Of a stretch of 64,000 bases of DNA, positions 47,139-58,698 are shown one piece after another. A model generated the notes under the pieces. That model did not search any database, was not told where the DNA came from, and saw only the letters and a list, made by a program, of their open reading frames with translations. A program made the position numbers and the translations under genes. Every line of letters starts with the position of its first letter. Position 1 is the stretch's first letter. The DNA lies in NCBI GenBank assembly GCA_016845065.1, contig JAERTG010000162.1, forward strand, positions 62,001 through 126,000, given 5' to 3'. The DNA comes from Fidelibacterota bacterium. GTDB lineage: Bacteria; Fidelibacterota; UBA8477; JABMPR01.

Positions 47139-47720
47139 ATGATGAAACATGAATTACCTGCTCTGCCATTTGCACAGGACGCTTTAGCTCCAGTTATCTC
47201 AGCTGAGACACTTGATTACCACTATGGTAAACACCACAATGCTTATGTGACAAATTTGAACAACCTGGTCCCAGGGACTGAGTTCGAAAATTCAACTCTG
47301 GAAGAAATCATTATGAAGGCTTCTGGTGGCGTCTTTAATAATGCTGCCCAGGTTTGGAATCACACATTCTACTGGAATTGTCTTTCACCAAATGGTGGTG
47401 CACCTTCAGGAGCTCTGGCCTCTGCCATCGATTCAGCCTTTGGTTCATTTGATAACTTTAAAGCTGAGTTTACCAAAGCAGCAGCCACAAACTTTGGTTC
47501 TGGTTGGACCTGGTTAGTTAAGAATGCTGATGGTTCTCTGGCAATTGCATCGACTTCAAACGCCGGAACACCTATGACCAACGGTCAGACAGCACTTCTC
47601 ACCGTTGATGTGTGGGAACATGCCTATTATGTAGACTATCGTAATGCACGTCCAAAATACCTGGAAGAAATCTGGAAGATTTTCAACTGGGATTTTGTAT
47701 CTGAGCAGTTCGCTAGATAG
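47139..47720 (+). CDS. sodB: Superoxide dismutase, Fe-type
   Basis: The 193-residue protein opens [15 protein letters not shown] and carries the four metal ligands of Fe/Mn superoxide dismutases: His in [11 protein letters not shown], His in [11 protein letters not shown], then Asp and His in [25 protein letters not shown] and the Gln-containing [10 protein letters not shown] region with Gln next to the active site favour iron over manganese. AAGGAG lies four bases before the first of two adjacent ATG codons. It is a single-gene unit with its own promoter and terminator. Confidence 0.96.
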
Positions 47721-47743
47721 TTGATACCACATGCTTGTATAAA

Positions 47744-47767
47744 GGGTCGGTTTTCCGACCCTTTTTT
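47744..47767 (+). terminator. Intrinsic terminator of sodB
   Basis: GGGTCGG (47744-47750), loop TTTT, CCGACCC (47755-47761), then six T. A textbook rho-independent terminator 24 bases after the stop codon. Confidence 0.95.
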
Positions 47768-47889
47768 GTCAATTACACCTGATTCAATCATTTGCTCACA
47801 CCTCGGCGTAAATACCTGGCTAATTGGGACTTGCTCCACCTCTAACAATTGACATATTTATAGCACAAGAATTCAAGAGGTATATCCGC

Positions 47890-49701
47890 ATGCACAAGTA
47901 TATAAAAATCATTTATGTGTTCACTTTTATTGTGAGCTCAATCTTTGGGAAGAGTATTCATTATGATCTGTCCATGTCCGAACCGCATACTCATTTGTTC
48001 GAAGTTGAGATGCGTCTAGAAGGAGCCAGAGGGAATGAGATTGTTGCCCTCCCTGTGTGGACACCAGGCTCATATCTCATAAGGGAATATGCCAGAAATG
48101 TCCAGGATATTAGCGCACGTAGTGAAGACGATTCTATTTTAAAGATCAAGAAAATTGATAAGAATCATTGGGAAGTAAGTGGCAAGGGCAGCCAGGATAT
48201 TATTGTCTCTTACCGCGTCTATGCCTTTGAGCATAGCGTCCGGACAAGCTTTCTCAATAGTGATCATGCTTTGGTTGTACCGGCCAGTGTGCTGATGTAC
48301 TGGCAAAAAAACCAACATCGAAAACACCATCTTCACATCAATATGCCAGAGAAGTGGTCTGAGATCACCACTGCATTAGAGCCCTTTAATCAACCGGGAA
48401 ATGTGGATTTCGTCGCCAGTAACTATGATGAGCTGGTTGACTCACCCTTAGAGTTAGGGAATCAACATGCCGTAGAATTTGAAGTTTTGGGGAAACCACA
48501 TGTCATGGGAATATATGGTGCCAGCAACTATGAGGATTCAGTGCTGGTGAGTGACTTTACCAAGATCATGGAAGCAGAGGCGGAGATATTTGGTGGATTA
48601 CCTTATGACCATTACGCCTATATTTTTCATGTTGAAGAAGGTCGTGGGGGTTTGGAGCATGCCAATTCATCTGTCAATTTCATTCGACGTTGGTCTTTTA
48701 ATGATGAGAAACGATATAAAAGTTTGTTGTCTCTTGTGGCCCATGAATTTTTCCATACCTGGAATGTAAAGCGTATTGTACCAAAGGGTGTGGCTAGCTT
48801 TGACTATGACAATGAAAACTATCTAGACGAGCTTTGGATGGCTGAGGGGTTTACCAGCTATTATGATGAACTCATCCTTCAGAGAATTGGTCATGTTGAC
48901 AAGGATGCTTATCTGGAGGTTGTAAAGGACGAAATAAACACTTTGGAAAAACGTCCTGGAAAGAATCACCAGTCTGTTGCAGAAGCCAGTTATGATGCCT
49001 GGATCAAATACTACCGCTCCAATGAGCACTCCAGCAACGCTACGATCTCGTATTACAACAAAGGACATTTGTTGGGGTTATTACTGGACATAAAAATTAT
49101 CGCAGCTACCCAGGGAAAATTCAATCTGGATGATGTCATGTTCACGTTGAATAAGAATTATGCCCTTAAGAATAAGGGCTATGTCAGTGACGATGTACGC
49201 AAAGTCTGCGAGAACATTAGCGGGCTAAAGTTGACCAGCTTTTTTGAAGATTATGTGTATGGTGTAGAGCCACTCCCCTATGACAATATTTTTGCATTGG
49301 CTGGTCTGGACTTGGACTCCACCACAGAAAAAAGTTCCTATCTCGGTGCAAATTTACGGGATAGGAATGGTCGCATCATAATTTCATCAGTGGTTGAGAA
49401 TTCCCCTGCCTGGGAAGCTGGTCTCAATGTACATGATGAGTTGGTGGCCATCGATGGTTTTAGGGTAAAAAGTCCAAAACCTGATTATTTCAGGGAAAAA
49501 ACTCCAGGTGATCGAATCATCTGTACTGTCAGTCGTAATGGCATTCTGAAGGACTTGCACCTCACGGTTGGTTTCAAACCTGCTGAAATCACAGAGCTCC
49601 GGCAAATTGATGAGCCCAGTGATTCCCAGAAGCTGGTTTTTGAGAAGTGGCTAGGTGTACCCTGGGATGAAGGGGCCATTGAGTCACCTGTGACGGAATA
49701 G
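47890..49701 (+). CDS. M61-family metallopeptidase with PDZ domain
   Basis: The ATG at 47890 has AGAGGT nine bases upstream and opens a proper signal peptide (HKYIKIIYVFTFIVSSIFG). An earlier in-frame start would bury it. The peptidase M61 layout follows: an N-terminal beta domain (VEMRLEGARG, LPVWTPGSYLIREYAR), the zinc motif HEFFH at residues 285-289 with the downstream Glu in ELWMAEGFTSYY, a helical domain and a C-terminal PDZ (about 490-570; SVVENSPAWEAGLNVHDEL). Characterised members remove N-terminal glycine or alanine, or act as periplasmic proteases. Confidence 0.92.
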   Translation: MHKYIKIIYVFTFIVSSIFGKSIHYDLSMSEPHTHLFEVEMRLEGARGNEIVALPVWTPGSYLIREYARNVQDISARSEDDSILKIKKIDKNHWEVSGKGSQDIIVSYRVYAFEHSVRTSFLNSDHALVVPASVLMYWQKNQHRKHHLHINMPEKWSEITTALEPFNQPGNVDFVASNYDELVDSPLELGNQHAVEFEVLGKPHVMGIYGASNYEDSVLVSDFTKIMEAEAEIFGGLPYDHYAYIFHVEEGRGGLEHANSSVNFIRRWSFNDEKRYKSLLSLVAHEFFHTWNVKRIVPKGVASFDYDNENYLDELWMAEGFTSYYDELILQRIGHVDKDAYLEVVKDEINTLEKRPGKNHQSVAEASYDAWIKYYRSNEHSSNATISYYNKGHLLGLLLDIKIIAATQGKFNLDDVMFTLNKNYALKNKGYVSDDVRKVCENISGLKLTSFFEDYVYGVEPLPYDNIFALAGLDLDSTTEKSSYLGANLRDRNGRIIISSVVENSPAWEAGLNVHDELVAIDGFRVKSPKPDYFREKTPGDRIICTVSRNGILKDLHLTVGFKPAEITELRQIDEPSDSQKLVFEKWLGVPWDEGAIESPVTE

Positions 49702-49928
49702 ACTTTACGAGTATATAGTCCGGATGAATTTGAAGTGACCGAATTTGCACCATCTTCACAATTTAATCCTCATTTAAATCCTTAAATCATACCGGATTCG
49801 TGAATATATGGTCACAGCTAAATGATATATTATATTCATCACGTTCCATTTCGATCCAAATTCTGTATCTACTCTTTCTGATTCTCCGAGCTGATGTGTA
49901 CCATTAATTTTAAACGGGGGGAAATACC

Positions 49929-51729
49929 ATGGGCAAGGTTCAGGTTGTTATAATTATCTCTAGCATCGCTTTTTTTAACCTTAATCAGCTGTGATGAGCC
50001 AATAGTTTTAGACACACCAATAAATTTATCTTTCATTCAGAATGGTGAAAAGACTATTACCCTTTTGTGGGAGAGTAACAACGATCAACAAGATGGTTTT
50101 ACTATTGATCGCAAGGAGGGTGATGGAACCTATACATTTCTTGCAAAGAAATCTGCCGACGAAACGAGCCACACGGATTCTGGATTAACAATTAACAAGA
50201 CCTATGGTTATCGGGTGAAGGTCGATGGTCAGGATGGAGATTCTGAATGGAGCGCGGAAGTTTTTATCCCCACTTTTTTAAATGCGCCTGCTGCTTTATG
50301 GCTAATCAGAGAGGAAGTGACCAAGTATTCTGTCAACTGGACAGATAATTCGAGCTATGAGGATGGGTATACGGTGGAACGCAAACTCGAAGGTGAAAGC
50401 TTTACTGTTTTGTCTAATACGCCACCGAATGTTACATCCATTATTGACTCTACGATACTCATTGATGAGACCTACACATATCGTGTAAAAGCAACAAGTT
50501 CTGAAGGAGATTCGGAGTATAGCTATGAGCGAACAGTGGCAATCTCATTTTTCTTTGATCCTCCCGAGAACCTCACTTTAACGCAAGATGACGAGACAAC
50601 CATCTCTCTGGCATGGGGGTATAGGTTGAATGCAGAGGGCTATGTTATCGAACGCAAGGTGGACGATGGGGAATACGTAATCCTAACGACAATCCCGGCT
50701 GGAGTTACATCTTTCACTGATTCTGATCTCGTAATCAATGAAACCTACACCTATCGCGTAAAGGCTACCAGTCCATACCGAGATTCTGGATGGAGTAATG
50801 AGCAGTCTGTTTCCATTTTGTTCTTGGGACCCAGTGATTTGCAGTTGATCCGGGAAAATGCGACTACCCTTAATCTCAGCTGGAGCGATAACTCCTTTGT
50901 TGAGAATGGATATATGCTTGAACGGAAGATAGGTGAGGGAGAGTTCACAGTTATATCAGACGAACCAGCCAATAGCACCAGCTTAAGTGATGTAGGCTTA
51001 TCCTTGGGGGAGACCTACAGTTATCGTGTGAAGGCTTACGGTGAGTATGGTGAATCAGCATACTCGAATAAAGCAATATATCTACTCTATGAAACCGGGG
51101 TTGTCACTGATATCGATGGCAATAGATATAATACCATAAAAAACGGTGATCAGTGGTGGATGGCTGAAAATCTTAAGGTTAGCAGATATCGTGATGGGTC
51201 TCCAATTTTCTATGCAACAGATACCTTAGATTCAGAAGTAACACCAGTTGTCGATGCGTACTACATATACAACAACAATGCATCAAACGAAGGAGATACT
51301 TATGGGTATCTGTATAATTGGTTTGCTGCAACAGACATCAAAGGCTTAGCACCTGAAGGGTGGCACATCCCAACTGATGAGGAGTGGGAAATCTTCATCG
51401 ATAATCTCGGTGGTGCTGAGGTGGCTGGTGATCACATGAAGCAAACGGGGAATGATCTGTGGGAGGAATATTCTGAAGCAACCAACTTGAGCGGGTTCAC
51501 AGCGTTACCAGGGGGGATATATTCAGACTCTTGGACCACCCCATGGCACGGGTCCGGATTCTGGTATCAGGGTCATAATGCTCACTATTGGTCGGCAACT
51601 GCGTCCGATAACGGCGATACGGAAATGGCTAGGTCTTACCTGTTGATATCTGTCTACTCATCCGTTCAATATGATTGGAGCACCAAGATGAGTGGACTTT
51701 CCGTGCGCTGTGTGAAGGATTCCCCTTAA
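49929..51729 (+). CDS. FN3-repeat and FISUMP-domain lipoprotein, frameshifted in its signal peptide
   Basis: The ATG at 49929 follows a GGGGGG ribosome site and opens MGKVQVVIIISSIAF, but that frame stops soon after. Deleting one T from the seven-T run at 49970-49976 joins it to the long frame and gives a lipoprotein signal ending FLTLISC-DEP. Without this the long frame has no credible start (first TTG at 50065). The mature protein has four FN3 repeats of about 85 residues, each with a GYxxERK-type core and a TYxYRVKA strand. A C-terminal FISUMP domain follows (TDIDGNRYNTIKNGDQWW, WMAENL, GWHIPTDEEW, GLSVRCVKD). FISUMP domains are common in Fibrobacter and other FCB surface proteins, function unclear. 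Confidence 0.8.
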
Positions 51730-51958
51730 ATGCTCTTGACCAGACTGACAAACCCTCACTATAAATAAAAGTATGGAATCCATCTCCTACAAAAAGAGGC
51801 AGAAAGATTTCTACAAATAAAGGGATTTGGACCAGTCGACACCTAGCAATTCAAGTGTTTCTCTAGTTTCGTTAAATCAATAAATATTGGGATGAGTAAT
51901 TTGATTCGTGAGCAAGCATCTGGATTGTATAATCAGGCTACGAAAGAGCTAGCTTGCG

Positions 51959-52765
51959 CTAGGATTTGTTTTTATCAATAGCGCGCATGACTTTGCGCTG
52001 AAGAAAGCCCTTAAAAAAGGTGTTCAGGAAGGGGACGAGTGCAAGTTTCCCTGGAATGTGCACCATCTTTTTATCACGCTCAATGGCTCGAATAATCTGT
52101 TCCACACAATCCTCTAGACTTACCGATTCGCTGGTGTGTTTCTTGGCGGATTCCTCGTGTTTTTTACCATCTGCACCAAATGCGTTACCCCTGAGATTGG
52201 TACCTCTTATCCAGCTTAACACGGCCTCAAGGATGGTAATCTCTCCCCTCAGTTCCATATCCAGTGTTTCCAAAAATCCATGTAAGGCATGTTTTGAGGC
52301 AACATAGCCAGAGTGATTTGGGAATCCCATGTGGGCTTGTGCAGTTGAACAGCTGACGATTTTTCCATGGGCCTGTTTCAGGGAGGGCAAAGCAGCATGA
52401 CAGCAATTCACAGCACCATGATAGTTCACATTCATCAAATCCTGGAAAAAGGATGGGTCGGTAATATCCTCAAACCGTGTCCACATACTAACACCGGCAT
52501 TCAGGATAAGACCATCCAGCTGACCGTAGGTATCAATTGTTTTATGGACCATGTTCTGGCAAGCCGCTAGATCGGTGATATCAGCTTGTACTGCCAGGGC
52601 GGATCCACCAGAATCATTGATTGAATCACTTACCCGTTTGAGTTCATCGGCTCTCCGGGCTGCACAGACCACCTTAGCGCCCTTTTTTGCGAGCACCCGT
52701 GAAAGCTCTTCACCAATACCAGACGATGCACCGGTGACAATAAAGACCTTTCCAGCAATGTCCAT
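51959..52765 (-). CDS. Short-chain dehydrogenase, DHRS7B-like; likely acyl/alkyl-DHAP reductase
   Basis: The 268-residue protein is a classical SDR: VTGASSGIGEE, CAARRADEL with basic residues favouring NADPH, LILNAGVSM, the catalytic Ser region (IVSCSTAQAHMG) and YVASKHALHG with Tyr and Lys. C-terminal helices (LALVPFLNTFFKGFLQRKV) could touch the membrane. The sequence style resembles DHRS7/DHRS7B, the mammalian reductase of 1-acyl/alkyl-dihydroxyacetone phosphate. It is the last gene of the operon with alkyl-DHAP synthase 25 bases upstream, which makes that role attractive; it is inference. Confidence 0.8.
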   Translation of the reverse strand: MDIAGKVFIVTGASSGIGEELSRVLAKKGAKVVCAARRADELKRVSDSINDSGGSALAVQADITDLAACQNMVHKTIDTYGQLDGLILNAGVSMWTRFEDITDPSFFQDLMNVNYHGAVNCCHAALPSLKQAHGKIVSCSTAQAHMGFPNHSGYVASKHALHGFLETLDMELRGEITILEAVLSWIRGTNLRGNAFGADGKKHEESAKKHTSESVSLEDCVEQIIRAIERDKKMVHIPGKLALVPFLNTFFKGFLQRKVMRAIDKNKS

Positions 52766-52790
52766 TTTTTAACCTTGAATTATGTTTCTC

Positions 52791-54560
52791 TTACTCGAAG
52801 AAGACATTGTTAGCTACGCCAAAAATGTTTTTAGGATCATGTCCCGTTTTCACCTGTTTTAGCATTTCGATGCTTGCAGGGGAAAGGGTCCCTTTCATAA
52901 AATCTTTACGCAGCTTTCCAACACCATGATGATGGGATATGGAACCACCAGCCTCCATGATTGCTTCTCTCATGGCATATTCAATTGAATTAAAAACCTC
53001 AATAGGGTTCTTTACCCCTTTGATGCTCATGGCAAACATAAAATAGATACAGACACCTGTATGGTAGATCTGTGGCACACGATAGGATATATAGGGATTC
53101 CCCGGGATATTATGCTTTTTGTGAAGCTCTTTAATTTTATTGGTAGCTGCATCGCACACCTCATGCACTTTGCTCCAGGGAACCGATGTTTCCATGGTTT
53201 CACCAATAATCCGATATCTCGTCATAAAATCTCTGATATAAGCGATAGCAAAAGTCAGATTATAACCCTTTTTGCCATTTTCTGAACCGCCAACCATGCC
53301 ATTATATTTTTTGGTTAACCGCTTTATGGTTTTCTGTTGCAGGTCAACTTCGTCCCTGGAACCCTCTAATTTGAATGAAGTCACCACCATTTTGTATGGA
53401 TCAAACTTTTTAACATTTAGAACGACAAACTTTTCAAGTTTTTTTATCCAGACCTTTAGTCCAGTAGGCTTGGCATTCAAAGCCTGTCCAAATCGGAATT
53501 GCGCGTTATCCATGAGACGTGCACTGGCAGGTACCGCACCACTCTTCGACAATTCATACATAAAGGCTACACCGGTCTCCCAGTTGTGAAACAGAGCAGA
53601 GTTATAATCAGATGATTCCGGGAGCACATGCACCTTTAATGTGGCTTTGGTGATGATTCCAAAATTACCCTCAGACCCTAATAACATGTTTTGTGGACTA
53701 ACACCAATCGAAGCACGTGTAATTGGATTTACCTGCTCCACAACGCCATTGGGAGTAATCATGGTTACATTCTCAACGATATCTTCAATATTTCCGTAAC
53801 GATTTTTTTTCATCCCGCTGGCATTGGTTGAAATCCAACCTCCCAGAGTTGACAACTCAATACTGTCAGGTTCATGTCCAACGGTGAGACCTTCGGCTTC
53901 CAGGAGTTCTTCAAGCTTGCCACCTAGGATTCCTGCCTGGACGACCACGCGACGGTTTTTCACATCAATTGACTCGATTTTATCCATGCGACGAGTGTCT
54001 ACTGCTACAACCATCCTTGTTTCAAATTGAGGAATTTGCAGGGCATTACTTACACTGGTTCCACCACCATAAGGGATGAGGCAAACATCATGTTCAATGG
54101 CCAGCTCAATCAATTTTTTGGCTTCGTCCTCGGACTCAATGTAGAATGCCATATCTGCTACTTTGTCAATTTTTGCGAAGACAACGTTATAAATTTCATC
54201 AGTGGTCTGTCCAGCACTGTGCATCAGTCGTTCTGCATCACCAAAGGAATAGCGGTCCTCAGCAAATGTGGCTTTGATGGCATCTGCAAAGGGCTGGTTG
54301 ATTTGAGCTTCCTTGACAGGTTTGTTGTCCACTTCAGGCAACACATCATCGACATCAACAGTCATATCCAACATCTCTTCAACGTAGGGAATAAAATCAG
54401 GCATATCGAAACCACAAAGCTCATATCGATCACCGGTCATGCTGACACTTCCGTCTTTATTCAGTAGAAATTCTGAATCCTTGTAACCCCACTTGTGCCC
54501 CCAATTGGTGTTGTTTACTGCAAAGAACTTCTCTTTTGCTGATTTATTCTCATTTGTCAT
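52791..54560 (-). CDS. Alkyldihydroxyacetonephosphate synthase (ether-lipid synthase)
   Basis: The 589-residue FAD enzyme matches eukaryotic AGPS closely by eye. Near the N-terminus is WGYKDSEF (human WGYNDSKF). The FAD loop is CLIPYGGGTSVSNAL (about 157-171), followed by VGHEPDSIELSTLGGW and SGMKKNRYGNIED. The active-site Arg segment is ASARLMDN (about 345-350), the Tyr segment is CIYFMF, and the His triplet is SHHHGVGKLRK (about 540-550). AGPS swaps the acyl chain of acyl-DHAP for a fatty alcohol, forming the ether bond. FAD-linked oxidases such as GlcD lack these segments. Its start overlaps the acyltransferase gene by 11 bases. It has no peroxisomal signal, as expected. Confidence 0.9.
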   Translation of the reverse strand: MTNENKSAKEKFFAVNNTNWGHKWGYKDSEFLLNKDGSVSMTGDRYELCGFDMPDFIPYVEEMLDMTVDVDDVLPEVDNKPVKEAQINQPFADAIKATFAEDRYSFGDAERLMHSAGQTTDEIYNVVFAKIDKVADMAFYIESEDEAKKLIELAIEHDVCLIPYGGGTSVSNALQIPQFETRMVVAVDTRRMDKIESIDVKNRRVVVQAGILGGKLEELLEAEGLTVGHEPDSIELSTLGGWISTNASGMKKNRYGNIEDIVENVTMITPNGVVEQVNPITRASIGVSPQNMLLGSEGNFGIITKATLKVHVLPESSDYNSALFHNWETGVAFMYELSKSGAVPASARLMDNAQFRFGQALNAKPTGLKVWIKKLEKFVVLNVKKFDPYKMVVTSFKLEGSRDEVDLQQKTIKRLTKKYNGMVGGSENGKKGYNLTFAIAYIRDFMTRYRIIGETMETSVPWSKVHEVCDAATNKIKELHKKHNIPGNPYISYRVPQIYHTGVCIYFMFAMSIKGVKNPIEVFNSIEYAMREAIMEAGGSISHHHGVGKLRKDFMKGTLSPASIEMLKQVKTGHDPKNIFGVANNVFFE

Positions 54561-55281
54561 ATAATTCTGTGGCCTTTTTTGTAATAGCTTGTTCTAACGC
54601 TGAGGTCAGATTTTTTGCAGCTTCTCTTAAGTCGTCCTCGCTGGGATTATCATTTTCCAGAAAAGAATCAGGAAAAATTGGTTCAAGAATATAGACGTCA
54701 ATATCAGTTGGACGCATTAAAAAATTGCCCCGTGGCCAGGCTTTGTGAGACCCGTAAATGACAGCTGGCAAAATAGGTGATTTCAAATCAAGGGAGAAAC
54801 GAGCAGCACCTTTTTTAAACGGCAATATTTTTCCTGGAAGCCCCCTGGTACCCTCAGGGAAAAAGATCAAACTGCGTTGTTTATAGTTCATAAAGGACTT
54901 ACACAATTTAATCGTGTCATTGATTGGAAATTGGCTGATTCCATTCACCTTACGATCAATTGGAATCAGGTTCATAACCGTATTTATTAAGTTTCGTCTT
55001 ATCCAGCTATCAAACCAATAATCTTTTGCTGCCATCATACCAAAATAATTAAAGCTTTTTTGGGCAGCAGCGGAAAGGAGTGCTACATCCATATGGCTGT
55101 TATGATTGCTGCAGAAAATAAACGATGAGTCTGGGATATTTTCACGTCCATGGACTGTTAAAGGAGTATAAAAAGCAAAAACAGTTTTACTATACGCGTA
55201 AAATAAGGTTTTCCAGATTTTATAGAAAAACGGCTGCTTCCCAACGAGGTAGGAATATTTTGGATTGTCAAGTACATCCAT
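54550..55281 (-). CDS. PlsC-type acyltransferase, possibly DHAP or lysophosphatidate acylation
   Basis: The 243-residue protein has the acyltransferase motifs: block I CSNHNSHMDVALL (HxxxxD), block II region NLIPIDRK, block III FFPEGTRG and block IV ILPAVIYGS. An N-terminal hydrophobic region suits membrane association. Members acylate glycerol phosphates or DHAP. Placement directly upstream of and overlapping the alkyl-DHAP synthase gene suggests it makes acyl-DHAP or fills the sn-2 position of ether lipids; which one cannot be told. Confidence 0.88.
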   Translation of the reverse strand: MDVLDNPKYSYLVGKQPFFYKIWKTLFYAYSKTVFAFYTPLTVHGRENIPDSSFIFCSNHNSHMDVALLSAAAQKSFNYFGMMAAKDYWFDSWIRRNLINTVMNLIPIDRKVNGISQFPINDTIKLCKSFMNYKQRSLIFFPEGTRGLPGKILPFKKGAARFSLDLKSPILPAVIYGSHKAWPRGNFLMRPTDIDVYILEPIFPDSFLENDNPSEDDLREAAKNLTSALEQAITKKATELYDK

Positions 55282-55289
55282 TGGAGACT

Positions 55290-56450
55290 CTATTTTCTAC
55301 CATATTTCATATGTGCATCGTTCCAGGTATGAGAACCAATGGCGCAGATGAGCGATATTTCGAGAGCCAGGGTTGCAGCAGCAATAATTTCGGCCAATTT
55401 TCTCGATCCGTTTTCACCCTCTGTGCAACCCAATAATTCCAGGTTTCGATTCTGCATTTTCAAGCGTGTACCACCACCAACAGTTCCAACAGTGAGTGAA
55501 GGCAAGGTTAGCTTAAACTTGAGACCATCCTCTTCCTTTTCCAGTCCAAGATGTGCGATACTGTTTTCAGCTGCACAAGCAGTGTCCTGTCCCGTAGCGA
55601 GATAAATAGCTGTGATGGCGTTGGAAACATGCAAGCCATTACCATGTGTTCCAGCGAGGCTTGACACAGTGGGAAAGAAACTCCAGGAATCAAACAGGAT
55701 ATCCGGATCCATTTTAAGAATTCTTTTGAGCACACTATTCTTTATTGTGGTTTCAGCATGTACACCATGACCACGACCCAGGAGCATATTTCGTCCAGAG
55801 GCTTTCTTGTCACTATTGAAATTAGACTCTAAAAAGTAATTGTGTCCGGTTTCAGCCTGGATGTATTCGCAGGCAACCTGAGCGGCCAGGGTAACCATGT
55901 TTTGTCCAGCTGCGTTATTGGTGTCCAACACCAGGTCCAGAACGACATAATTTTGAACTGTGATTTGATCAATTCTCAATACTTTACCATGTTTGGTTGT
56001 ACTCTCAGCCACTTCCATGATTTTGGCTTCGTTAGCTGTCACCCACTCTTGAAACTTGGCACTTTCAATAATGTCATCAAAAATGAATACGGGAGCTCGT
56101 GAGAGTTCTTGTCTGAAGTGGCGTACTGTAGTTCCACCACTAAGTGTGGAGGCATAAATACCACGGTTCATGGAGGCAGCGAGTGTTCCCTCCAGAGTAC
56201 AAAGTGGAATCATGAATTCACCATTTGCATAGGTGCCGTTGATATTTAATGGTCCTACAACGGCCATAGGTATCTTCATGCTTCCCACATGATTCTCAAT
56301 AATGCCCTTTAAGTCTTCAACATCATCCTCGAGGGTATCATCTATCTCGACACCAGTGAATTTTTTGACCCACTCTCTCCGGGCTTCAGAGTCTTCAGTG
56401 CTGTAGCCTCTGGGAAGAAAAGAATTGCGTCCATTAGTTAGTTCAGACAT
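55290..56450 (-). CDS. HMG-CoA reductase-like enzyme in the ether-lipid operon
   Basis: The 386-residue protein has the class I HMG-CoA reductase layout: ENHVGSMKIPMAVVGPL, LEGTLAASMNRG with the catalytic Glu (near 84), SDKKASGRN with the Lys (near 213), ATGQDTACAA with the Asp (near 286), GTVGGGTRL in the NADPH site and a C-terminal His (near 378). The first cofactor motif, usually DAMGMNM, reads NAAGQNM, and the serine that binds the HMG carboxylate appears changed (ESNFNSDKK). HMG-CoA reductase turns an acyl-CoA into an alcohol with two NADPH. It may make mevalonate, or a different alcohol. AAGGGG precedes the ATG; it is first in the operon. Confidence 0.88.
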   Translation of the reverse strand: MSELTNGRNSFLPRGYSTEDSEARREWVKKFTGVEIDDTLEDDVEDLKGIIENHVGSMKIPMAVVGPLNINGTYANGEFMIPLCTLEGTLAASMNRGIYASTLSGGTTVRHFRQELSRAPVFIFDDIIESAKFQEWVTANEAKIMEVAESTTKHGKVLRIDQITVQNYVVLDLVLDTNNAAGQNMVTLAAQVACEYIQAETGHNYFLESNFNSDKKASGRNMLLGRGHGVHAETTIKNSVLKRILKMDPDILFDSWSFFPTVSSLAGTHGNGLHVSNAITAIYLATGQDTACAAENSIAHLGLEKEEDGLKFKLTLPSLTVGTVGGGTRLKMQNRNLELLGCTEGENGSRKLAEIIAAATLALEISLICAIGSHTWNDAHMKYGRK

Positions 56451-56610
56451 AAAGCGCCCCTTAAAATGATAAGTAGATGGTGTTATTACCGTTAGGCCAG
56501 TTATATAACCATTTTAGAGATAAAATCAATCATCTATATTGGGTTAATAGTGACGGTTTGGTGTGTTGATCTGGAGATTTTTTATACCCTTTTGTTGCTT
56601 CGATATAAAA

Positions 56611-56634
56611 AAGCCCGAAGCGTACTCCGGGCTT
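56611..56634 (-). terminator. Intrinsic terminator of rpsU
   Basis: On the minus strand AAGCCCG (56634-56628) pairs with CGGGCTT (56617-56611) and is followed by a T run (TTTTTT, 56612-56607). It lies about 24 bases after the rpsU stop. Confidence 0.9.
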
Positions 56635-56657
56635 TAAATATTGATCAGCGTTACGGT

Positions 56658-56849
56658 TTAGTAGCGACTGGTTTGACGACTACGTTTGGCGGCTTTGGCC
56701 CGACGCAGGCGGCGGTCTTCTGATGGCTTTAAATAGAAGGAGTTCTTCTTAACATCTTTAAGAATGCCGGCTTTCTCATATTTCTTCTTGAAACGCCTTA
56801 GCGCTTTTTCAAAGGGTTCATCCCGTTTAACGGTAACCATTACTGACAT
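56658..56849 (-). CDS. rpsU: 30S ribosomal protein S21
   Basis: This 63-residue basic protein shows the S21 signature VKRDEPFEKALRRFKKKYEKAG and a basic C-terminal helix (RRLRRAKAAKRSRQ). AGGAGG lies 12 bases before the ATG, a long spacing, but the alternative start three codons in is even farther. It follows rpoD by 24 bases, so the two share a message. This reverses the order of the classical rpsU-dnaG-rpoD operon, and dnaG is absent. Confidence 0.96.
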   Translation of the reverse strand: MSVMVTVKRDEPFEKALRRFKKKYEKAGILKDVKKNSFYLKPSEDRRLRRAKAAKRSRQTSRY

Positions 56850-56873
56850 AGTGCGATCTCACCTCCTTCTAAA

Positions 56874-57731
56874 TTAACCTAAATAGGTCTGCAGTTTGCG
56901 ACTACGGGATTTATGCTGGAGACGCTTGATGGCCTTCTCCTTGATCTGACGAACACGTTCCCGAGTCAGGTTGAATTCTTCCCCAATTTCATTGAGGGTT
57001 AATGCATATTCACGATCAATTCCGAAATACATGCGGATCACTTCACGCTCTCTATCTTTCAGGGTGTCAAGAGCTGATCGAATTTCTTTTTTTAATGAAT
57101 CAGACATGAGGTCGAAATCGGGAGCATCTTGATGTTCATCCTCAATCACATCCATGAGTGAATTTTTTTCTTCTTCCTGGAAGGGTGCATCCAGTGAATG
57201 GTGACGCTTTGAAATACGTATGGCGTCAGCGACTTCCTCTGGAGCCATATCCAGCTCCTTAGCGATCTCACGCTCTGTTGGAGTTCGTTCCAGTTTTTGC
57301 TCTAGTCGATCGGAAGTCTTAGAGATTTTGGAAATAGTACCAACCCGATTGAGGGGTAAACGTACGATACGTGAATGCTCAGCCAGTGCCTGAAGGATAG
57401 ATTGACGAATCCACCAGACAGCGTAGGATATAAATTTGAAACCACGTGTCTCATCAAAACGCTCAGCAGCCTTAATTAAACCAAGATTTCCCTCATTAAT
57501 GAGGTCAGTCAATGGTAAACCCTGACCTTGATAATCTTTGGCCACAGAGACCACAAAACGGAGGTTGGCTTCAGTTAATTTTTTTAGAGCAAGACGGTCA
57601 CCCTGCTTGACCCTCTGGGCCAGTGAGATCTCATCTTTCGGATCCAGCGGTTCATACTGACCGATTTCCTCTAGATACTTACTGAGGCTGCGATTTGTGT
57701 CTCCACCGATCCTTTTAACTTTTTTAGCCAT
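56874..57731 (-). CDS. rpoD: Primary RNA polymerase sigma factor, short form
   Basis: The 285-residue protein begins almost directly at region 1.2 ([15 protein letters not shown]). Region 2 follows ([37 protein letters not shown]; the -10-melting part [16 protein letters not shown]), then region 3 and region 4 ([35 protein letters not shown]). Region 1.1 is missing, as in Bacteroidota-type primary sigma factors of about 290 residues. The region 2.4 and 4.2 helices are intact. It directs housekeeping transcription and leads the rpoD-rpsU unit. Confidence 0.95.
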
Positions 57732-58059
57732 AGGCTCCTTCCGTTACTGCTTTGATCGCAATTGATACAAAGCCAGCGAAATTAATTTTAACCCCTACAC
57801 CTGTCAAGTGATAAGGAAGCTTTAATTAGATTAAAAAAGGGAGCTAAAGTGACAAAATATTATGGATTTATGTTTAATATCTGACTACTGGGCAAATAGC
57901 TCAAAAATGTTAATTTGAGTATCTTTTTTAGTAATCAGGTAGTGTAAGTCCAGACGCGAGACAAAATGACACAGGCATACCGAATATTAATCGTAAGAAT
58001 ACCTACACTCCCCAACGACAAAGCCAGGGACAGCTACACGGGGGCTAAGGAGTACAAAA
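57732..58059. other. 328-base intergenic region with divergent promoters
   Basis: This A/T-rich gap separates rpoD (minus) from a methyltransferase gene (plus). I see no RNA gene, repeat or open frame in it. It should hold the rpoD promoter and that of the methyltransferase gene; an AAGGAG ribosome site for the latter ends it. Confidence 0.7.
57779..57807 (-). promoter_or_regulatory. Candidate rpoD promoter
   Basis: On the minus strand an exact TTGACA (57807-57802) is followed after 17 bases by TAATTT (57784-57779), a weak -10 box, about 50 bases before the rpoD start codon. Confidence 0.4.
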
Positions 58060-58698
58060 GTGGAGAAACTACCAGAAACAACTCTAGCCCAAGATCACTT
58101 TTATGACGGATGGATTTATAGAAAGTTTTTAGACCCCTCCCTCAAGGGGATTCGAATTAGAATATCCCGGCTCATCCCTGAAAACAGCACTGTGCTCGAT
58201 GTGGGATGCGGCACAGGTGATCAGTTGTTTTTTATCTCGGATCAAATCAAATCGGGCTTAGGTGTAGAACTGTCCGAAGCCATGATCAATACTTGTAGGG
58301 ACCAAGCTCGTCTAAGAGATATATCGAACTGTGAATTTGAATTGGCTGATGCCAGTAACCTTGTGAACCTGGAGAATCAGTCTTTTGACTATGCCCTGAC
58401 AAGCCTGGTCATCCATGAAATGCCTGAGGCGGTTCGTATTCCTGTGTTGAAAGAGATGGCTAGGATAGGAAGGCAGCTTATCCTGGTGGATTGGATTTAT
58501 CCACAACCACCCCCGTTTAAGAAGTTCACAACACACCTGGTTGAACGAATTGCTGGTAAAGAACACTATGCAGGTTTCCGATCGTTCATGAAGCAAGGTG
58601 GGATGCCGGCACTTATAAAGACCCTTGGGCTTGATGTGGTTGAAACCCAAATTACGGGTAGGGGCACGATTCAATTATGGGTGTGCAGAACCCAATAA
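58060..58698 (+). CDS. Class I SAM-dependent methyltransferase
   Basis: The 212-residue protein has motif I VLDVGCGTGDQLFF, the acidic end of beta-2 (GVELSEAM), ELADASNLVNL and motif IV YALTSLVIHEMP. The layout matches UbiE-like small-molecule or lipid methyltransferases. The GTG start has AAGGAG seven bases upstream. Later segments (FKKFTTHLVERIAGKEHYAGF) suggest a lid helix. Substrate unknown. Confidence 0.87.
   Translation: MEKLPETTLAQDHFYDGWIYRKFLDPSLKGIRIRISRLIPENSTVLDVGCGTGDQLFFISDQIKSGLGVELSEAMINTCRDQARLRDISNCEFELADASNLVNLENQSFDYALTSLVIHEMPEAVRIPVLKEMARIGRQLILVDWIYPQPPPFKKFTTHLVERIAGKEHYAGFRSFMKQGGMPALIKTLGLDVVETQITGRGTIQLWVCRTQ

Follow-up and report, generated by a model that had tools for sequence, protein, structure and literature searches.

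Known routes to ether lipids

Mammalian ether lipids require a DHAP acyltransferase, AGPS (alkyl-DHAP, or alkylglycerone phosphate, synthase) and an acyl/alkyl-DHAP reductase, together with a fatty acyl-CoA reductase that supplies the fatty alcohol. Compared with this peroxisomal pathway (FAR1, GNPAT, AGPS and DHRS7B/PexRAP), the operon described here would carry the same four reaction types, with a clearly homologous AGPS and a reductase of the same SDR superfamily, but with a relative of HMG-CoA reductase (HMGR) in place of FAR1, a PlsC-type protein in place of GNPAT, and no organelle. Among bacteria, the passages of PMC9131029 that treat the Myxococcus xanthus operon MXAN_1676-1674 describe an AGPS, a FAR1-like and GNPAT-like fusion and an NAD-dependent epimerase, and liken the set to the mammalian pathway. 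Our locus likewise pairs a bacterial AGPS with a putative alcohol supply and an acyltransferase, although FcrA, PlsC-type and SDR genes take the places of the FAR, the GNPAT-like part and the annotated epimerase/dehydratase. Disruption of the M. xanthus AGPS reportedly causes only a small drop in ether lipids, for which ElbD provides the main route (PMC9131029).

A fatty acyl-CoA reductase derived from HMGR, FcrA, was proven in 2025 in Natronomonas pharaonis and Ca. Promineifilum breve (PMC11948995). It often occurs without a wax-ester synthase, and some FcrA proteins were suggested to feed ether-lipid synthesis, a proposal built on loosely linked genes: an AGPS gene lies nine genes from Pb-FcrA (PMC11948995). 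AGPS homologues, the same gene in the same phylum as ours, were counted in 49 of 134 Marinisomatota (=Neomarinimicrobiota) MAGs from the Black Sea, and another ether route, Ger, in 45 of the 134; the main text of PMC11868695 reports the presence of homologues and does not contain the terms FcrA, HMG-CoA or fatty alcohol. The pathway idea is thus less novel than the first-pass annotation of this DNA implied, since FcrA and the AGPS/FAR/GNPAT-like operon of M. xanthus were in print and the use of FcrA in ether lipids had been proposed (PMC11948995, PMC9131029). What appears new is an arrangement of enzyme types already known, in which an HMGR relative predicted to supply fatty alcohol sits beside AGPS.

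A four-gene operon around an AGPS gene

The window, meaning the whole stretch of 64,000 nucleotides analysed, comes from a genome of Candidatus Neomarinimicrobiota, a marine bacterium, and holds four minus-strand ORFs side by side, confirmed from the sequence. Eight bases separate the HMGR-like gene from the PlsC-type gene, the latter overlaps AGPS by 11 bases, and 25 bases lie between AGPS and the SDR gene, exactly as first read. Between an upstream rpoD-like sigma gene and fcrA lies a terminator-like hairpin of 11 pairs with a T tail (56610..56635, minus strand), which makes it probable that the operon is transcribed separately. Of the six terminator-like sites found, this hairpin has the longest stem; shuffled sequences average 4.8 such sites, which are therefore not enriched as a group.

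The AGPS gene (52791..54560, minus strand, 589 aa) encodes a protein of families PF01565 and PF02913 (FAD_binding_4 and FAD-oxidase_C) that matches solved guinea-pig AGPS (4bby) over residues 20-584 with a phmmer E of 3.6e-140. Its SHHHG motif is invariant in 13 aligned rows, the window included, and the residues that we take to form the active site (R419, R515, Y578 and H615-H617, guinea-pig numbering) are all identical in the alignment, which was read by eye. Because GlcD belongs to the same FAD families, the protein could instead be a flavin oxidase of the glycolate/lactate type and no alkyl transferase. Its score against the GlcD model is far below the cut-off (153.6 against 567.9 bits), the best oxidase reaches 96 bits where the solved AGPS enzymes reach 471 and 257, and the HHH motif of AGPS is present. 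Together these rule out a simple flavin oxidase, a reading we find extremely improbable, and judged by its sequence the protein is unmistakably an AGPS.

The first-pass annotation counted three clear counterparts of the mammalian pathway, of which AGPS stands as such, the acyltransferase is PlsC-type and the SDR is placed at family level. The acyltransferase (54550..55281, minus strand, 243 aa) carries the HX4D (NHNSHMD) and FPEGTR motifs and matches PF01553 with 77 bits; in our profile searches this was its only family, with no match to a DHAP-acyltransferase-specific model. It stays below the cut-off of TIGR00530 (66.0 against 102.95 bits), and its closest solved protein is the LPAAT 5kym (E 7.5e-16). 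The SDR (51959..52765, minus strand, 268 aa) matches PF00106 with 161 bits and exceeds the cut-off of NCBIfam PRK06181 (244.6 against 215), a model presumably akin to DHRS7B. It matched 599 solved sequences of a very large superfamily, and DHRS7B was not among the best 60 of the 599. With its position after AGPS, these family-level matches make it a predicted acyl/alkyl-DHAP reductase.

The HMGR-like protein fits FcrA

The first gene of the operon (55290..56450, minus strand) encodes 386 aa, the catalytic core only, and matches PF00368 with 338 bits. Its protein keeps the catalytic residues E87, K215, D289 and H380, and all three substrate-pocket positions are altered relative to HMGR, to E208 (S684), W376 (L862) and F259 (K735; human numbering in brackets): an acid, a bulky residue and a non-Lys, as FcrA requires. 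The Phe at the K735 position is unlike the 'generally small' residue given for FcrA in PMC11948995, which prints Lys795 and whose Gly411/Lys367 numbering implies 735. Five solved class I HMGR sequences (one archaeal, two plant and two human constructs), read by eye, have S, L and K at these positions. In an alignment of 47 rows (40 distinct sequences), the catalytic K, D and H are kept in every row and E in 46, the other being unread; the S684 position is E or D and the L862 position W or F throughout, and the K735 position is Lys in none.

The protein shares 41% identity with a Promineifilum homologue and resembles FcrA in its class I HMGR family, its catalytic residues, the kind of pocket change and a genome without the mevalonate pathway (PMC11948995). 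It differs from the assayed FcrA, which has an N-terminal Lad/ACP domain that the window protein lacks. A fatty acyl-CoA reductase, as the first-pass annotation proposed, is therefore well supported as a prediction from the named residues, and a classical FAR occupies the same slot in one relative.

The gene might nevertheless encode a true HMG-CoA reductase for isoprenoids that lies beside lipid genes by chance. Class I homology (the best solved match is archaeal HMGR 6hr7, E 5e-78) and the retained catalytic residues speak for this, but the protein scores 289.7 bits against TIGR00533, the NCBI HMGR equivalog model, whose cut-off is 441.8, and the HMG-binding S684, K735 and L862 are all changed (E/F/W). 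Its genome, a 93% complete MAG, has DXR and a single PF00368 gene, and the model for mevalonate-diphosphate decarboxylase has no hit in it. The same model does match G007, a genome of the phylum whose mevalonate-linked HMGR is a different, class II protein, fused to mevalonate kinase in a mevalonate cluster. Across 199 genomes of the phylum this model matched 71 at E 1e-3, nearly all weakly, and was strong only in G007 and G184; 11 genomes exceeded the cut-off, none of them with the operon. HMG-CoA synthase was likewise not found in the window's genome, but that search also missed G007 despite its mevalonate cluster, so this negative weighs little and we relied on the decarboxylase model. The 36 of 199 genomes that the synthase search did match, G007 not among them, gave mostly weak hits in frames of ~330-400 aa, which we guess to be ketoacyl-ACP synthases. 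The cut-off, the pocket residues, DXR, the decarboxylase negative and the contrast with G007 rule out an isoprenoid role, which we regard as very unlikely.

FcrA was first found in wax-ester producers (PMC11948995), and the operon could in principle make fatty alcohols for wax esters, with AGPS doing something else. The phylum's 199 genomes, among them that of the window, gave no match to WS/DGAT (PF03007); as a control, the same search was positive in 5 of 9 genomes checked in addition (five of eight from other phyla, with G107 negative). This absence, with a working control, rules out a wax-ester role, and the fixed adjacency to AGPS described below also counts against one; we consider it hardly credible. 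Compared with the FcrA of PMC11948995, the window gene stands in an immediate operon with PlsC, AGPS and SDR genes, in a phylum in which no WS/DGAT was found.

Gene order across the phylum

Among the 199 genomes, 39 have a true AGPS, 39 have PF00368 and 38 have both. In all 38 the two genes are adjacent, on one contig and the same strand, with 719-895 bp between the matches; the gene order does recur in relatives, the check that the first-pass annotation had called for. Within the window's genus, 9 of 19 genomes carry both genes and 10 neither. At the best 30 AGPS loci (the window's own included), a PlsC gene directly precedes and an SDR gene directly follows AGPS in 30 of 30, and an HMGR-like gene is present in 29, so the four-gene cluster is not due to chance; the locus without it, L031, is cut by a contig end within the PlsC gene. 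The only HMGR-only genome is G007, and the only AGPS-only genome, G107, has a classical FAR (PF07993 + PF03015) in the same slot, before PlsC-AGPS-SDR. Since the 199 genomes do not count as independent, a single old cluster, inherited with losses, could explain the linkage, but the exchange of single genes argues for more than that.

At 48 AGPS loci of other phyla we found FAR in 10, FcrA in 2 and an SDR of this type in 19; with the thresholds used, neither FcrA nor FAR lay within 4.5 kb at 36 of the 48, some of which are cut by contig ends. A middle protein of ~650 aa in Latescibacterota/Gemmatimonadota gave a non-significant match (E 0.41) in a profile search of solved structures.

The operon might make ether lipids while its PlsC-type enzyme serves as a dedicated sn-2 acyltransferase for 1-alkyl-G3P, acyl-DHAP coming from an enzyme elsewhere in the genome. 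Its PlsC-type motifs, its LPAAT match and the nine PF01553 genes of the genome would suit such a role. Against it, two other PF01553 proteins of the genome exceed the LPAAT cut-off and the operon's does not (four were scored), and both the place of PlsC directly before AGPS in 30 of 30 loci and a gammaproteobacterial protein, L125, that joins PlsC to AGPS (further fusions were sought in one genome) are expected if the PlsC-type enzyme hands acyl-DHAP to AGPS. We lean against the sn-2 role while treating it as a serious possibility.

A predicted DHAP route to 1-O-alkyl glycerolipids

Very probably the four genes are a single operon that makes 1-O-alkyl glycerolipids through DHAP; we infer each enzyme activity and the lipid product as follows. 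FcrA would reduce a long-chain fatty acyl-CoA to the fatty alcohol with two NADPH, and an acyltransferase, for which the operon's PlsC-type gene is the likeliest candidate, would form 1-acyl-DHAP. On its flavin, AGPS would replace the acyl group with the fatty alcohol to give alkyl-DHAP, which the SDR would reduce to 1-alkyl-G3P for entry into phospholipid synthesis. Alternatively, the PlsC-type enzyme may acylate sn-2 of the finished 1-alkyl-G3P.

More broadly, the operon may be a self-contained, exchangeable cassette that covers the DHAP ether-lipid pathway from end to end. Its alcohol slot would accept FcrA or FAR, two reductases unrelated to each other, and its PlsC-type enzyme would be the DHAP acyltransferase, channelling acyl-DHAP to AGPS; where bacteria lack a wax-ester synthase, FcrA would then serve in nature mainly for ether lipids. 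Our confidence in this wider reading is evenly divided. Because 38 of the 199 sampled genomes of this phylum keep FcrA and AGPS together in a fixed order, and a classical FAR naturally takes the place of FcrA in one other, the ether-lipid proposal for FcrA can be tested directly with a construct of 4.5 kb. Should it be right, members of this marine phylum synthesise ether lipids as animals do, with an HMGR relative replacing FAR1, and such bacterial genes that now carry the annotation HMG-CoA reductase should be given another name.

We keep both alkyl and alkenyl end products, as the pattern of the plasmalogen desaturase family PF10520 is not decisive: it scores strongly in G107 (152 bits) but weakly in the window's genome (47 bits, cut-off 26.4), and likewise weakly in some members of the genus, both with and without the operon.

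A four-gene operon with predicted ether-lipid functions

The first-pass annotation had described four minus-strand genes as a bacterial ether-lipid pathway in which an HMG-CoA reductase (HMGR)-like enzyme supplies the fatty alcohol. The genes and their spacing matched the reading frames of the window exactly, and family scans assigned their products to HMG-CoA reductase (55290-56450), acyltransferase (PlsC-type, 54550-55281), FAD-linked oxidase (alkyl-DHAP synthase, AGPS; 52791-54560) and short-chain dehydrogenase (SDR; 51959-52765). The ether-lipid interpretation was supported as well; its acyltransferase step and all enzyme activities are the predicted part. A T-tailed hairpin lies between the first operon gene and an rpoD-like sigma gene upstream, which makes the operon a probable unit of its own. 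Terminator-like sites, the class to which this hairpin belongs, show no overall enrichment in the window. The genome (182 contigs, 4.05 Mb) comes from a genus of Candidatus Neomarinimicrobiota.

The window's AGPS aligned with solved guinea-pig AGPS over nearly its full length (residues 20-584; E 3.6e-140), with identity at the residues that we take to form the active site. One other FAD-oxidase_C gene was found in the genome, in a 956-aa frame. The genome encodes nine PF01553 acyltransferases; when four of these were scored against an LPAAT cut-off, two passed and the operon's PlsC-type protein fell below. Acyl/alkyl-DHAP reductase activity has been assayed for DHRS7B and DHRS7 (PMC13200781), which supports the putative SDR assignment by family resemblance only.

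The HMGR-like protein resembles FcrA

The HMGR-like protein matched class I HMG-CoA reductase, yet scored under NCBI's HMGR cut-off. Grossi et al. (2025) describe three pocket positions at which FcrA, an HMGR-derived fatty acyl-CoA reductase, differs from HMGR (PMC11948995); we took the third to be K735 from the paper's own numbering (Lys367 for K691, Gly411), though 'Lys795' is printed. In an alignment of 47 rows (40 distinct; 18 from the phylum, 27 from named contigs, 1 from Promineifilum and 1 from a gammaproteobacterium), the catalytic Lys, Asp and His were kept throughout and the Glu in 46, the remaining row being unread. The S684 position held Glu in 43 rows and Asp in 4, the L862 position Phe in 31 and Trp in 16, and the K735 position Lys in none of the 47, whichever of two candidate columns is used. 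At these positions, five class I HMGRs with solved structures carry Ser, Leu and Lys. The Promineifilum homologue, from the genus of the assayed enzyme but another species, is 41% identical to the window's protein and has an extra N-terminal domain (PF25653) that the latter lacks. The start of a second FcrA-like gene lies downstream of the operon at a contig end of another genome of the phylum, G149 (L047:8769-9212).

FcrA-like genes and AGPS are linked across the phylum

Among 199 genomes of the phylum, which are related to one another, 39 encode AGPS at ≥50% identity (137 at E 1e-3, weak glycolate/lactate-oxidase-type matches among them) and 39 encode the HMGR family PF00368. Both occurred together in 38 genomes, always on a common contig and strand and 719-895 bp apart, linkage in four (G088, G147, G174 and G194) being based on genes truncated by contig ends. 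Given the relatedness of the genomes, the value from a Fisher test exaggerates independence. The sole AGPS-only genome, G107, has a two-domain classical fatty acyl-CoA reductase (FAR) at the place of FcrA, followed by PlsC, AGPS and SDR. The sole HMGR-only genome, G007, encodes a class II HMGR-mevalonate kinase fusion adjoining a phosphomevalonate-kinase-like gene, mevalonate-diphosphate decarboxylase and IPP isomerase. DXR is present in the window's genome, where the mevalonate decarboxylase model that matched strongly in G007 had no match. A profile search for wax-ester synthase (WS/DGAT) was negative in all 199 genomes; in a nine-genome control, it found the enzyme in five of eight genomes from other phyla and was negative in G107.

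AGPS loci beyond the phylum

Scanning named genomes with the AGPS alignment yielded at least 591 candidate stretches, at least 540 of them confirmed; we analysed the best 80 loci. Here, the 25 loci labelled Neomarinimicrobiota or Marinimicrobia had FcrA (24) or FAR (1), 23 of them with the full FcrA, PlsC, AGPS and SDR set, and seven labelled just 'bacterium' included four with FcrA and one with FAR. The 48 loci from other phyla included 2 with FcrA, 10 with FAR and 19 with an SDR of the window's type; 36 had neither reductase within 4.5 kb at the thresholds used. At these thresholds, FcrA and FAR never shared a locus among the best 80.

One gammaproteobacterial contig (L125) carries an FcrA-like gene (35% identity to the window's) and a PlsC-AGPS fusion in a single 822-aa reading frame (L125:7239-9707). 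At seven loci (L118, L129, L136-L139 and L142; for example, L137:5830-7851), FAR and AGPS are separated by a ~650-aa protein; these loci come from Latescibacterota, Gemmatimonadota and one unlabelled bacterium. Three of these proteins were scanned, with no Pfam match. The C-terminus of the ~650-aa protein has HX4D-like and related motifs as well as weak similarity to the PlsC genes. These acyltransferase-like motifs point to a family that may be GNPAT-like and has apparently not been described before.

General background came from PMC9702350 and PMC7852524. In Myxococcus xanthus, an operon combines AGPS with FAR1-like and GNPAT-like domains, and AGPS loss has a minor effect in this organism (PMC9131029). 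Among 134 Marinisomatota metagenome-assembled genomes, 49 encode AGPS and 45 encode Ger, another ether enzyme (PMC11868695). Grossi et al. propose an ether-lipid role for some FcrA; their main text, as available, does not name Neomarinimicrobiota (PMC11948995). We found no report of an FcrA-PlsC-AGPS-SDR operon in searches of open-access literature that reach few subscription journals.

Patchy distribution and possible gene exchange

In the window's genus (19 genomes), AGPS and PF00368 are both present in 9 genomes and both absent from 10. A weak member of the CarF/TMEM189 lipid-desaturase family (47 bits) is encoded in the window's genome (G000:C26:12872-13309; L187:1223-1903) and is possibly a plasmalogen desaturase; within the genus, a gene of this family occurs in 7 of the 9 genomes with the operon and in 2 of the 10 without it.

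We compared the sigma-gene neighbourhood in eight operon-bearing genomes of the genus, leaving out G088. The operon adjoins the rpoD-like sigma gene in the window, G029, G041, G053 and G084, and is absent from the 1.5 kb examined downstream of that gene in G057, G069 and G080. In the window, it is flanked by the sigma gene and an M61-peptidase gene (47139-58698); these genes lie 0.4 and 1.4 kb apart in operon-free G033 (L192) and G091 (L190), respectively. Relative to the window, FcrA of G157 is 59% identical and its other three proteins 71-73%, and G139 has AGPS at 56% and FcrA at 73%. Such discordant identities (L051, L053 and L061 versus the window) suggest that single operon genes were swapped in place: FcrA in G157, and AGPS in G139 and G156.
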